Below, one piece after another: positions 9,364 to 55,195 of a DNA stretch of 64,000 bases (position 1 is the first letter of the stretch; every line of letters begins with the position of its first letter). The stretch spans positions 186,001 to 250,000 of the forward strand of contig CAMAQH010000003.1 of assembly GCA_945860295.1 (NCBI GenBank), given 5' to 3'. Origin of the DNA: Prosthecobacter debontii. Lineage in GTDB: Bacteria > Verrucomicrobiota > Verrucomicrobiia > Verrucomicrobiales > Verrucomicrobiaceae. A model generated the notes under the pieces. It ran no database searches. It saw only the letters and a list, made by a program, of their open reading frames with translations, and was not told where the DNA came from. The translations under genes and the position numbers were made by a program.

Positions 9364-10265
9364 ACGACAGCGCAACATCTCACGTCAGTGTTCGGCGCAT
9401 CGCTCTACCCGATAGCGCGACCACTTTTGAAGACGTCACCGCACGCGAAGAGCCTTTAGAAATCCGCGTCGAAGGCCGCAGTGTCGCCGTCGTCATGCGC
9501 ACACCGGGGCACGATGAAGAACTCGTCGCTGGCTTCCTCGTTAGTGAAGGCGTGATCAAAAGCGCGCGCGATATTTTAGAGATCAGCCAATGCCCGAGCA
9601 CAGGCAACACGCATGGAAATGTCGTCGATGTCCTGCTTGGTGCCGTCGTCGTAAACTGGGATAATCTCACGCGCCATGTCTTCAGCGCATCGAGCTGCGG
9701 CATCTGTGGGAAGACGAGCATTGAGAGTGTGTTCCAGAGTTTTCCACCAGTGACTTCGGATCTGCGTGTGAGTCCTAAACTCATCACCACACTGCCCGCC
9801 AAGCTCCGCGCCGCGCAGGAAACCTTCTCCCAAACCGGCGGCCTCCATGCCAGCGCCATCTTCGATGAGCACGGTGAGATGCTCGTGCTGCGGGAGGATG
9901 TTGGCCGCCACAACGCGCTCGATAAAGTCCTCGGTCACGGTTTGCAAAACAACGTACTGCCTTACAGCCGTCACGTTCTATTGGTGAGCGGTCGTGTCTC
10001 TTTTGAGCTGATGCAAAAAGCACTCGCTGCCGGTGTGCCAATCGTCGCCGCCATCTCCGCACCCAGCAGTCTCGCCGTCGAATTCGCCCAGACCAGCGGC
10101 CAGACGCTCATCGGCTTCCTGCGTGGTCAGACGATGAATGTGTACACGCACCCTGAGCGGATAGCTTTCGAAGGGCACGATGACGCCTTGGTTGCCATGC
10201 AGCGACTGGCCGAACCTGCCCGACTATATTCTGCCCTCGAAGTACTGCGTGAATTAGGCTGCTAA
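9360..10265 (+). CDS. fdhD: Formate dehydrogenase accessory sulfurtransferase FdhD
   Basis: 301 aa. FdhD relays sulfur from IscS to the molybdenum/tungsten bis-MGD cofactor of formate dehydrogenase in the cytoplasm. The diagnostic SSCGICGK segment holds the C-x-x-C pair that carries the persulfide (near residues 115-118). EEPLEIRVEGR and the PGHDEELVAGFL motif in the N-terminal part, and GGLHASAIF and REDVGRHNALDK further on, are all family features. ATG 9360 overlaps the holA stop by 4 bp and is preferred over the upstream in-frame start. No formate dehydrogenase gene is in the window, so the client is elsewhere or is another Mo enzyme. Confidence 0.95.
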   Translation: MNDSATSHVSVRRIALPDSATTFEDVTAREEPLEIRVEGRSVAVVMRTPGHDEELVAGFLVSEGVIKSARDILEISQCPSTGNTHGNVVDVLLGAVVVNWDNLTRHVFSASSCGICGKTSIESVFQSFPPVTSDLRVSPKLITTLPAKLRAAQETFSQTGGLHASAIFDEHGEMLVLREDVGRHNALDKVLGHGLQNNVLPYSRHVLLVSGRVSFELMQKALAAGVPIVAAISAPSSLAVEFAQTSGQTLIGFLRGQTMNVYTHPERIAFEGHDDALVAMQRLAEPARLYSALEVLRELGC

Positions 10266-10342
10266 TGGGCATGTGGACGAGTGAGGCACCAGCCCTTGCC
10301 ACATGCTCCTGCCGCGCTAGGCTCGGCGCTCCATTTTCCATC

Positions 10343-13138
10343 ATGAGCGCCGAGACCCCTGCCAAGAAGAACTACAAAGACACCGTTCGCCTGCCAAAGA
10401 CCGACTTTCCCATGAAGGCGGACCTCGTCACACGCGAGCCCCTGCGCCTGGCCAAATGGGAAGCAGGCGGCCTTTACCAGCGAATCATGAAGCAGGCCGC
10501 CGGACGCCCGAAGTTTGTCCTGCATGACGGCCCGCCCTTTGCCAATGGCGATGTCCACATGGGCACCGCGCTGAATAAAGTGCTCAAGGACCTCATCGTG
10601 AAGTCCAAGACCATGGCCGGCTTCCACGCCCCCTTCATCCCCGGCTGGGATTGTCACGGCCTGCCCATCGAGTTCAAAGTGGTGAAAGAAGCCAAGGACC
10701 TCGCCCCTGCCGAAGTCCGCACGCGTTCGGAAGCCTACGCCCGCAAGTTCATCGACATCCAGCGCCAGTCCTTCAAGCGCCTCGGCGTCTTCGGCGACTG
10801 GGAGAACCCGTATCTCACGCTCGCACCGACCTATGAGGCCGACATCATGCGCACCTTTGCGAAGTTCCTGGAGAAAGGCCTCGTCTATCGTGCCAAGCGC
10901 CCCGTCCTCTGGAGCTACGGTGCCCAGACCGCCCTCGCTGAAGCTGAGGTCGAGTACAAAGAAAAGACCTCTCCGGCGATCTTCGTCACCTTTGCGCTGG
11001 TGAATCCACCGCCCGGACTCGATGGCGCGAATCTCGTGATCTGGACCACCACGCCCTGGACTCTTCCGGCCAACCTCGGCATCGCGCTGCATCCCGGCTT
11101 TGATTACATCTGTGGCACCTTCACCCACGCCGCCAGCGGCCGCAGCCTGAAGCTCGTCATCGCCACCTCACGTCTCGAGGCTTTCCAGGCGGCCACCGGT
11201 TTCGTGCTCGATCCCACCCATGCGCCGGAGAAGTTCAAAGGCAGCCTGCTCAATGGCGGCGCGGCTCAGCATCCCTTCCTGCCCCGCAGGTCAAAGATCA
11301 TCGAGGCCCTCTTCGTCACCGACGACACCGGCACCGGCGCCGTCCACATGGCTCCCGGCCACGGCGCAGACGACTACATCGCCGGCAAAGAGCACGGCTT
11401 GAAGATCCTATCGCCCGTCGATGACGCTGGCTGCTTCACGGCCGAGTGCGGTTTGCCCGAGTTCGTCGGTCAGCACGTCTTCAAGAGCAACGAAGGCATC
11501 ATCGCTATCCTTGAGGGCAAAGGCGCGCTCCTTGGCAACGAAAAATACGTCCATCAGTATCCTCATTGCTGGCGCTCCAAGACCCCGATCATCTTCCGTG
11601 CCGTCCCGCAGTTCTTCATCCGCATCGCCGCCTTCCGCGACGAAGCCCTAAAGGCTATCGACACCGTGAACTGGCTGCCCGCCTGGGGCCGCAACCGCAT
11701 CTACGGCACCGTCGAAAGCCGTCCGGATTGGTGCATCTCCCGCCAGCGCACCTGGGGCGTTCCACTGCCCATCTTCTACGATGCCGAAGGCCAGGCCATC
11801 ATGGATCACACGATTTCCCTGAAGGTCGCCGACGCCGTCGAGACGCACGGTACCAACCTCTGGTTTGAAAAAGACGACGCCTTCTGGAGCGACCTCGTCG
11901 GCCTGCCAGAGGGTAGCAAGCGCTGCAAAGACACGCTCGACGTCTGGATCGATTCCGGCTCCTCCTCCGTCGCCGTTTTGGATCGCCACCCAGAGCTGTA
12001 TTGCCCTGCCGATGTCTATATCGAGGGTACTGACCAGCATCGCGGTTGGTTCCAGAGCAGCCTCATGGTCAGCGTCGCCGTCCGCGGCATCGCCCCGTAC
12101 AAGACCGTCATCACCAATGGCTTCGTCGTCGATACCAGCGGCAAAAAGATCAGCAAAAGCGACCAGGGCACCGACAAAGCCGCCAAGCCCATGACCGCCG
12201 ACCACTACTACAACAAGTACGGTGGCGACATGGTCCGCCTCTGGGCCGCCAGCGTCGATTACCAAAACGACGTCCCCTTCAGCGAGGAACTCTTCCAGCA
12301 GACCGGCGAGAGCTACCGCCGCATCCGCAACACCTTCCGCGTGTTGCTTGGCAATCTGCATGATGAAGAAAAAGGAAAAGAAAAAAATCCTGTCGATCCT
12401 GCTAATTCTGTAATCCTGTCAAAACAGGCCGCCGATCTTCCGCTGATCGACCGCTGGATCCTCGAGCGCCTCCACAGCGTCCTCATCGACTGCCTCGCCG
12501 GATACGCCGCCTACGACTTCCGCAAAGTCGTCAGCACCATCACTCAGTTCGTCTCCGGCGACCTCTCCGCCCTCTACATCGACATCACCAAGGACCGCCT
12601 CTACTGCGATGCCGCCGACAACCCCCGCCGTCGCGCCACCCAGGCCACCATCCGCGAGATCACCGAGACCTTGACCAAGCTCCTCGCCCCCATCCTCGCC
12701 TACACCGCCGACGAAACCTGGGAGTTCCTCGGCCACTCTGACAGCGTCCACTTGGAGGCCTTCCCGCAGCCGAACTCAACGTTCGCCAGCACAGAGGCCA
12801 CTGCCGCCGTCGAAGAACTGCTGAAAGCCCGCGCCGTCATCCAGCAAGCCATCGAAGCCGCCCGTCAGGCTAAGAAGATCGGCTCCAATCTCGAAGCCAC
12901 CGTCAAGCTCACCCTCCCCGAGGCCGGCTTCACCAACCCCGTCTTTCAGGATCTGCCCACCCTCCAAGAATTCTTCATCCTCAGCGACCTCCACATCACC
13001 CGAGGCTCAGAACTGGCCGCCAGCGTCGAAGTCTGCACCCACCCCAAGTGCGAACGCTGCTGGAAGCTCCTCCCGGATGTGGGTACACATGACGCACATC
13101 CGACGCTCTGCGGACGGTGTGCTGAGGCGGTGGGCTAA
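10343..13138 (+). CDS. ileS: Isoleucyl-tRNA synthetase
   Basis: Charges tRNA-Ile. 931 aa from ATG 10343 (MSAETPAKKNYKDTVRLPKT); the in-frame ATG at 10265 would add 26 residues with no family resemblance. Class I signatures are present: PPFANGDVHMGTALNK (HIGH-type) near residue 62 and KKISKSDQG (KMSKS-type) near residue 602. The editing (CP1) domain lies between, with TTTPWTLPANLG. The C-terminal zinc site C-x2-C ... C-x2-C is present (CERCW, CGRC). An unusual Lys/Glu/Asn-rich linker of about 27 residues precedes LIDRW at the anticodon-binding domain, roughly ten longer than in E. coli IleS, and is encoded by a 9-bp-period repeat (separate entry). fdhD is immediately upstream. Confidence 0.96.
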   Translation: MSAETPAKKNYKDTVRLPKTDFPMKADLVTREPLRLAKWEAGGLYQRIMKQAAGRPKFVLHDGPPFANGDVHMGTALNKVLKDLIVKSKTMAGFHAPFIPGWDCHGLPIEFKVVKEAKDLAPAEVRTRSEAYARKFIDIQRQSFKRLGVFGDWENPYLTLAPTYEADIMRTFAKFLEKGLVYRAKRPVLWSYGAQTALAEAEVEYKEKTSPAIFVTFALVNPPPGLDGANLVIWTTTPWTLPANLGIALHPGFDYICGTFTHAASGRSLKLVIATSRLEAFQAATGFVLDPTHAPEKFKGSLLNGGAAQHPFLPRRSKIIEALFVTDDTGTGAVHMAPGHGADDYIAGKEHGLKILSPVDDAGCFTAECGLPEFVGQHVFKSNEGIIAILEGKGALLGNEKYVHQYPHCWRSKTPIIFRAVPQFFIRIAAFRDEALKAIDTVNWLPAWGRNRIYGTVESRPDWCISRQRTWGVPLPIFYDAEGQAIMDHTISLKVADAVETHGTNLWFEKDDAFWSDLVGLPEGSKRCKDTLDVWIDSGSSSVAVLDRHPELYCPADVYIEGTDQHRGWFQSSLMVSVAVRGIAPYKTVITNGFVVDTSGKKISKSDQGTDKAAKPMTADHYYNKYGGDMVRLWAASVDYQNDVPFSEELFQQTGESYRRIRNTFRVLLGNLHDEEKGKEKNPVDPANSVILSKQAADLPLIDRWILERLHSVLIDCLAGYAAYDFRKVVSTITQFVSGDLSALYIDITKDRLYCDAADNPRRRATQATIREITETLTKLLAPILAYTADETWEFLGHSDSVHLEAFPQPNSTFASTEATAAVEELLKARAVIQQAIEAARQAKKIGSNLEATVKLTLPEAGFTNPVFQDLPTLQEFFILSDLHITRGSELAASVEVCTHPKCERCWKLLPDVGTHDAHPTLCGRCAEAVG
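12386..12420 (+). repeat. 9-bp-period repeat inside ileS
   Basis: Four near-identical units follow each other: AATCCTGTC, GATCCTGCT, AATTCTGT (one base short) and AATCCTGTC. They encode part of the extra linker upstream of the anticodon-binding domain and stand out from the surrounding GC-rich codons by their A/T richness. The sequence phrase looks like a mobile or dispersed intergenic repeat that has been tolerated in frame. I recall similar phrases as intergenic repeats in PVC genomes, but cannot check that here. Confidence 0.55.
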
Positions 13139-54927: not shown

Positions 54928-55014
54928 CGAGAAAAGCCGGAGACGGAAGCGACAGCAATGGCCGTGTATAAAAATGTCGAGCGAATCTGAATGATCTGGT
55001 TTTTCGTGAGTGCT

Positions 55015-55120
55015 GCTCCTTTCGCTAGAAAAAGGAAAAGATGAGGAAAAGATGCGTGGCAAATAGTGCTCCTTTCGCTAGAAAAAGGAAAAGATGAGGA
55101 AAAGATGCGTGGCAAATAGT
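55015..55120. repeat. Two perfect 53-bp tandem repeats
   Basis: 55015-55067 is repeated identically at 55068-55120. Each unit begins GCTCCTTTCGCTAGAAAAAG, contains the AGGAAAAGATG phrase twice, and ends GGCAAATAGT. The inner sub-repeat makes the unit purine-rich. Because both copies are identical, the duplication is recent or recombining. It lies in the intergenic gap at the end of the accessory island. Two copies without spacers do not make a CRISPR. Confidence 0.9.
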
Positions 55121-55195
55121 GCTGCTGTGGGTTGAGTTACTGAATCCACACCGTGCATCCAGAACCACGGAGCTGTCACCGCAGGTGTGGTTTCT

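Follow-up and report, generated by a model that had tools for sequence, protein, structure and literature searches.

An in-frame iteron array in the isoleucyl-tRNA synthetase linker of Prosthecobacter debontii, and a candidate GxxExxY element as its source

As described in the part of PMC3733652 drawn on here, Rickettsia palindromic elements (RPE) are dispersed in and outside genes, lie in frame and add residues to proteins; repetitive extragenic palindromes (REPs) of the GTAG and CGTC types occur inside genes, the GTAG type most in O. terrae (Verrucomicrobia); other species have REPs within tRNA synthetase genes; and at roughly one position in recB, two Xanthomonas species carry different REPs. 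The in-gene REPs and the shared recB site indicated that in-frame intragenic palindromes, even at recurrent sites, were already known. The same part describes TIRtrons, in which tyrosine transposase genes lie between long terminal inverted repeats. Here we analysed a 64,000-nucleotide stretch of Prosthecobacter debontii (GCA_945860295.1, CAMAQH010000003.1, positions 186,001–250,000; “the window”), in which ileS, the isoleucyl-tRNA synthetase (IleRS) gene, contains an in-frame array of iterons of an AATCCTG family. With a probability of roughly 0.7, this array is a one-armed, gene-less derivative of an iteron element carrying a gene of the GxxExxY family, inserted into and tolerated in a permissive ileS linker.

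The AATCCTG family resembled RPE in being dispersed and palindromic with an in-frame copy within a gene, but it was made of 9-bp iterons and its ileS copy was a single arm. This likeness is one of behaviour. Like GTAG REPs and REP doublets forming hairpins (REPINs) with REP-associated tyrosine transposases (RAYTs), the family comprised short palindromes, mostly intergenic and some in coding sequence, but it lacked GTAG, was not a single stem-loop and did not lie near Y1 transposase genes. With miniature inverted-repeat transposable elements (MITEs) and TIRtrons it shared a gene between inverted repeats and gene-less copies with the same ends; the GxxExxY element differed in enclosing a PD-(D/E)XK gene and in having tandem iterons, mostly of 8–10 bp, as ends. 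In open-licence papers of PubMed Central (PMC), 16-mers of the AATCCTG family had no match, and no report was found that described the iteron family, GxxExxY genes enclosed by iteron arms or the ileS linker; ISfinder and preprints lay outside this search.

Pfam domains tRNA-synt_1, Anticodon_1 and zf-FPG_IleRS were found at residues 62–672, 729–881 and 928–954 of the ileS product. The array (12386–12420) sits between the first two and hence in a linker, at about residues 701–724, and reads AATCCTGTC-GATCCTGCT-AATTCTGT-AATCCTGTC with spacings of 9, 9 and 8 bp. A preliminary description of the window had placed four near copies in this linker, and they were present there. It had also held that a period of nine keeps the frame: the frame is indeed kept, but the third spacing of 8 bp makes the period not strict, and the frame is kept because the whole linker is longer by an integral number of codons. 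In the compared interval the linker had 38 codons, 12 more than the 26 in distant genera (L131–L139), and other linkers without a recognised repeat had 22–28; against the solved IleRS 8c9e, used as the reference in place of the E. coli enzyme, it was also 12 residues longer. The longest chain of AATCCTG units (at most one mismatch, spacing 8–10) in the window had four units, compared with a maximum of two in 60 dinucleotide shuffles. The single 9-mer, one mismatch allowed, showed no enrichment there (10 matches against 13.6 expected), so the signal resides in the array.

Table 1. Coordinates of ileS and of the parts of its linker in the window
Feature	Coordinates	Strand	Remarks
ileS open reading frame (ORF), isoleucyl-tRNA synthetase	10265..13138	+	957 aa as listed; profile domains and alignment to 8c9e
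Expanded linker EEKGKEKNPVDPANSVILSKQAAD	12365..12436	+	catalytic core to anticodon-binding domain
Purine-rich stretch GAAGAAAAAGGAAAAGAAAAA	12365..12385	+	position expected for other arm of a complete element
Iteron unit 1 AATCCTGTC	12386..12394	+	
Iteron unit 2 GATCCTGCT	12395..12403	+	
Iteron unit 3 AATTCTGT	12404..12411	+	8 bp
Iteron unit 4 AATCCTGTC	12412..12420	+	then AAAA

Copies of the array, inside and outside genes, were counted in the source genome (G000; 4.68 Mb in 75 contigs, 95% complete), where the window is C3:186001-250000. A 3-unit pattern gave 13 matches versus 0 for its reversed control, and a looser 2-unit pattern 65 versus 9; loci were obtained for 30 of the 65, and 20 loci were examined as sequence, 12 of which had at least three units. 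ileS was the sole one of the 12 placed between protein domains. At L002, L006 and L029 the repeat preceded the first Pfam domain of a long ORF, on its 5′ side, at L012 and L023 it overlapped frames without any Pfam match, and the others were outside ORFs of 100 codons or touched one by 5 bases. In this genome the family thus occurs in frame within an ORF and also between genes, and the proposal that an essential gene had accommodated a repeat element in frame was borne out, the array belonging to a dispersed family.

Several of these loci were inverted pairs, with CAGGATT units, a short centre and AATCCTG units in that order; complete copies had 3–4 iterons per arm and other loci were one-armed. 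Two-armed copies (three from the source genome and three from G203) folded into long single-strand hairpins (DNA z −4.3 to −9.5), versus a 5-bp stem only for the ileS copy, which is not palindromic. Unit 4 with its AAAA forms an outer end, AATCCTGTCAAAA, that also marks the right arm in several complete elements of other genomes, so the ileS copy reads as a right-hand arm that retains this end. The purine-rich stretch GAAGAAAAAGGAAAAGAAAAA occupies the place expected for the centre and left arm and is, on reading of the sequences, common to G281 and in part to G287. Judged by its sequence, the ileS array is a single arm of a palindromic element that is dispersed in the genome. The preliminary description had likened it to the palindromic elements in Rickettsia genes; this was supported in that the family builds two-armed palindromes elsewhere in the genome, with the qualification that ileS holds one arm only.

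The family was also found beyond this genome. Within the genus the pattern occurred in 26 of 39 genomes (reversed control, three matches in two genomes), and within the phylum in 35 of 240 (reversed control, 0 in each genome); several copies in other genomes of the phylum had ends TTTTGACAGGATT ... AATCCTGTCAAAA or near variants, with centres of ~13 to 410 bp. The named GTDB collection contained the exact 3-unit arm GACAGGATTNACAGGATTNACAGGATT in at least 114 stretches, with record titles from Verrucomicrobiota, Kiritimatiellae, Chloroflexi, Beta-, Gamma- and Deltaproteobacteria, Bacteroidetes, Nitrospinota, Clostridiales and two archaeal metagenome-assembled genomes (MAGs), a list in which MAG titles may conceal binning errors; the arm was also in the named strains Thiobaca trueperi DSM 13587 and Spirosoma telluris HMF3257. 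These observations bear on a different origin of the array, namely local slippage (tandem duplication) of a 9-mer within ileS, independent of the other genome copies. The units of ileS do stand in tandem, G281 has a diverged array with the same flank, and iterons can expand in place: long head-to-tail arrays, far above four units, of AATCCTGTT in G297 (C639:741-873) and of AATCCCGTC in G266 (C16:23048-23126) suggest such expansion. Slippage is nevertheless very improbable as the origin, as the AATCCTG unit is dispersed at the same spacing in the source genome and in the phylum, at counts unlike chance (reversed controls 0 and 9), its outer end AATCCTGTCAAAA agrees with complete elements, and other repeat families occupy the same linker site in relatives.

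A RAYT origin of the family was rejected after a Y1_Tnp search in the source genome, 39 genus genomes, 16 repeat-rich genomes and 127 AATCCTG loci. None of the three Y1 genes of the source genome was flanked by AATCCTG units. The 127 loci (L043–L089 and L219–L298; 745 kb; 34 further loci from the scan for the 3-unit arm were outside the test) contained one Y1 ORF by an iterated profile that recovered all 63 Y1 loci; the initial profile of nine sequences, which it replaced, also gave one match. A loose 3-unit cluster lay somewhere in 5 of the 63 Y1 loci, four of them with mixed orientation, and several Y1 genes of the genus carried stem-loop REPs. On reading, the AATCCTG copies inspected had iteron arms in place of any GTAG-tagged stem-loop. 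The absence of the GTAG tag, together with the single Y1 gene in 127 loci, indicated that the family is not of the RAYT/REP type.

To compare the site among relatives, as the preliminary description had proposed, IleRS proteins were aligned. A match was found in all 59 genomes searched of the family to which the source species belongs, in some of them to related synthetases only, and linkers were read at 50 loci from 50 genomes, the source genome included. Stop codons were reported somewhere within 6 of the 30 ileS matches given a locus; the linkers themselves, all 50, read through without a stop. The 26-codon interval of the distant genera was free of repeats. Within the genus of the source species and among its nearest neighbours, AATCCTG iterons lay in frame in the linkers of G000, G287 and G290, with a diverged array in G281; AATCTG/CACAGATT iterons in those of G267, G271 and G282, with a related longer palindrome in G273 and G280; and REPs of the GTAG/GTGG type, some as inverted pairs, in those of G258, G241, G254, G268, G261, G274, G269 and G265, the tag with a single stem-loop being visible, for example, at L117, L124 and L098. 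A GGACAGGTT...AACCTGTCC palindrome was found in G275 and G262, and other inserts, by eye, in G283, G252 and G278. Inserts of the ACAGGTT, TTCGGGC, CACGC, GACTT and GTCAA types were assigned by eye or by stem-loop only, the GTCAA linkers (L096, L099 and L100) being putative repeats only. The inserts of G283 and of G275/G262 were unrelated, though the rest of the protein was almost identical.

On a tree of 48 IleRS sequences, built with the linker excluded, 18 changes were needed for 12 linker labels, and at least two for the AATCCTG label (G000 and G290). Inserts of at least seven residues were present at the linker in 15 sequences versus five sequences elsewhere within residues 40–955. Genome counts of the GTRG pattern against its control were 36 versus 0 in G258 and 46 versus 3 in G274, and those of AATCTG 10 versus 0 in G282 and 15 versus 0 in G267. 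Counts were low for AATCCTG in G281 (1) and G290 (2) and for AATCTG in G273 (1) and G271 (2), indicating that some linkers carry a family now rare in the genome; G241, G254, G265, G280 and G287 were outside these counts. At least three distinct families whose counts show dispersal in the genus (AATCCTG, AATCTG and GTAG/GTGG) have entered the linker, always in frame, besides others judged by eye, and it is the one place in ileS that distinct repeat families hit repeatedly. A linker conserved as protein across distant Verrucomicrobia, which the preliminary description had named as the contrary case, was not what the alignment gave: the linker was variable, and many congeners carried other in-frame repeats.

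Such refilling within one clade, beside stability in other genera, could also mean that the insert is selected for a function, such as a co-translational folding pause or ileS regulation, for which repeats were recruited. We consider this improbable, as the inserts differ in sequence, codons and length (reaching 33 codons above the 26-codon interval), congeners without a recognised insert exist (L109, L110, L123, L125 and L127), and REPs lie within other proteins as well. In G258, 2 of 20 GTGG-type loci fetched were well inside long ORFs; At L173 and L179, REPs of this type lie in frame, the former in an Lhr-like helicase, where WH_Lhr and DEAD_assoc enclose it, the latter in UvrA.

Genes accompanying the iterons were sought by an all-against-all ORF comparison of 114 loci, which gave as top clusters an ABC-transporter-like one (eight), another (five) and GxxExxY (five; PF13366). 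The family name (TIGR04256/PF13366) states no function, and in an open-licence PMC paper that uses the term, GxxExxY is only the name of a neighbour gene. GxxExxY was picked partly on general grounds, and the tests that followed used separate loci. PF13366 gave 80 matches, with at least one in 19 of 22 genomes searched; 70 loci were fetched and 66 kept, leaving out L338, L356 and L423 (near contig ends) and L341 (off-register). Inverted repeats within 250 bp of GxxExxY were detected in 49 of 66 loci at p ≤ 1/100 versus 4 of 200 random 340-bp intervals, and at a score of at least 40 in 32 of 66 versus 0 of 200. Recomputation with 200 shuffles gave 48 of 66 (p ≤ 2/200), and after merging of homologous flanks 37 of 49 independent loci were positive, with 24 clusters reaching a score of 40. 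The arms consisted mostly of tandem units: of the 24 loci positive in the first set, 11 had a best lag of 9 and 19 one of 8–10 bp. AATCCTG-type arms flanked GxxExxY at five independent places (L335/L354, L340, L352, L402 and a locus shared by four congeners), and in G282 the AATCTG family was both in ileS and beside GxxExxY (L404). Arrays with a 9-bp period, as found by a counter, numbered 31 at GxxExxY loci (in 13 of 30), 13 at ileS loci (in 9 of 50) and 8 at Y1 loci (in 8 of 59); several of the arrays resemble GC-rich coding periodicity. An earlier flank test, with the 99th percentile of cross-pairs as threshold, had given 0 of 27 GxxExxY, 0 of 25 PF05635 and 2 of 40 Y1 loci; that threshold was inflated by high-scoring, probably homologous pairs, and per-locus shuffles were used instead.

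The GxxExxY proteins L361, L352 and L351 matched TIGR04256/PF13366, a PD-(D/E)XK nuclease family; in PADLOC, three GxxExxY proteins were without a match. By alignment columns, 48 of 48 armed and 9 of 18 unarmed loci kept D..[ED]xK (Fisher p 1.3e-6), counts that supersede those of a prior regular expression (47 of 48 and 7 of 18). The predicted structure (predicted local distance difference test, pLDDT, 91.6) had as its top match SSO0001 (Foldseek E 2.5e-05; VIA Z 10.2, root-mean-square deviation 7.5, 115 aligned), which we take to be a Cas4 protein. Wolbachia Cin/Cid nuclease domains, restriction enzymes, Cas4 and Holliday-junction resolvases came next, with Z between 6 and 9; with these the model may share a general arrangement and nothing further.

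Several observations weigh against a GxxExxY source of the arms. Direct-orientation repeats flanked 17 of 66 GxxExxY loci versus 6 of 200 random intervals (p ≤ 1/100), indicating that these neighbourhoods are repeat-rich in general, and the random intervals, here as for the inverted repeats, were drawn from the surroundings of ileS and of REPs in the family of the source species and not from all GxxExxY genomes. L345, L347, L358 and L361 are one orthologous locus in four congeners, next to a gene that reads like pheT, and so represent one event, not four; L340 was borderline (p 2/100). Inverted arms were also present around Y1 transposase genes (23 of 40) and, as iterons, around PF05635 four-helix-bundle genes (20 of 25; best lag 7, 8, 10 or 11 in 18 of the 20), so that arms alone cannot identify the mover. 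No PF13366 match was found in the repeat-bearing genomes G142, G230 and G212. The single PF13366 gene of the source genome, L351 (G000:C33:16374-16721), had lost E-x-K, and its best inverted match contained no iteron and lay more than 100 bp off on both sides (p 2/100); no armed, intact GxxExxY gene was found in this 95% complete genome.

Much of this would fit palindromes that serve passively as landing pads, or that house small genes (GxxExxY, four-helix-bundle protein) as cargo, and that something else spreads, such as host recombination or another transposase: arms of mostly other periods around PF05635 genes, palindromes in the three genomes without a PF13366 match, and abundant direct repeats around GxxExxY are what such a process could leave. 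We regard it as less likely, given the 8–10 bp lag of most GxxExxY arms, the catalytic motif kept in every armed copy and lost from half of the unarmed ones, and the lack of enrichment of Y1 transposases near the AATCCTG family.

Under the preferred reading of a one-armed derivative of a GxxExxY element, a unit of iterons, gene and inverted iterons would be a minimal mobile element, whose nuclease may act on the iteron arms or on the hairpin formed by them; a role of the GxxExxY nuclease in mobility is what we infer from the arms and the conserved motif. Gene-less copies would be its non-autonomous derivatives. The right-hand arm of one such miniature palindromic element, with its four AATCCTG iterons, would have been inserted into the ileS linker in or before the ancestor of the source species and its closest sampled relative (G287), and would owe its survival there to a net length divisible by three, the lack of a stop codon and a linker tolerant of added residues. 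More generally, and only tentatively, TIGR04256 GxxExxY proteins, small Cas4-like PD-(D/E)XK nucleases, could be the mobility enzymes of widespread minimal elements ending in inverted arrays of ~9-bp iterons, whose gene-less palindromes, scattered over many phyla, would add new in-frame linker sequence to IleRS and other essential proteins. If true, this would open a new type of minimal mobile element to direct test; iteron arms would give the GxxExxY family a function and the orphan repeats of many phyla an enzyme. The linker of an essential gene, filled anew by several distinct repeat families in a single genus, documents in nature how mobile DNA becomes protein sequence.

Some further observations were made. 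L351, L411 and L417–L422 form a group of GxxExxY paralogues in genomes of the genus of the source species, without E-x-K and without arms, which has possibly been domesticated. The PF05635 loci (L363–L392, 22 genomes) encode proteins of the 23S rRNA intervening-sequence type. The start of ileS, taken from where homology begins, is probably the ATG at 10343, ahead of a conserved NYKDTVRLPKTDFPM; a structure model of IleRS was poor (mean pLDDT 50.5) and was not used. The ileS of G282 (L105) had, besides the linker insert, a second repeat-like in-frame insert, of 24 and 7 residues, towards the C-terminal part of IleRS at query residue ~841, and that of G264 (L099) a GTTCGTAGTTCGGGCTTCAGCCCG-type palindrome in the coding region of the editing domain, like the linker insert of G283. 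Elsewhere in the window, 55014–55123 is a perfect tandem duplication with a period of 53 bp, the units of which contain AGGAAAAGATG-type 11-bp repeats.

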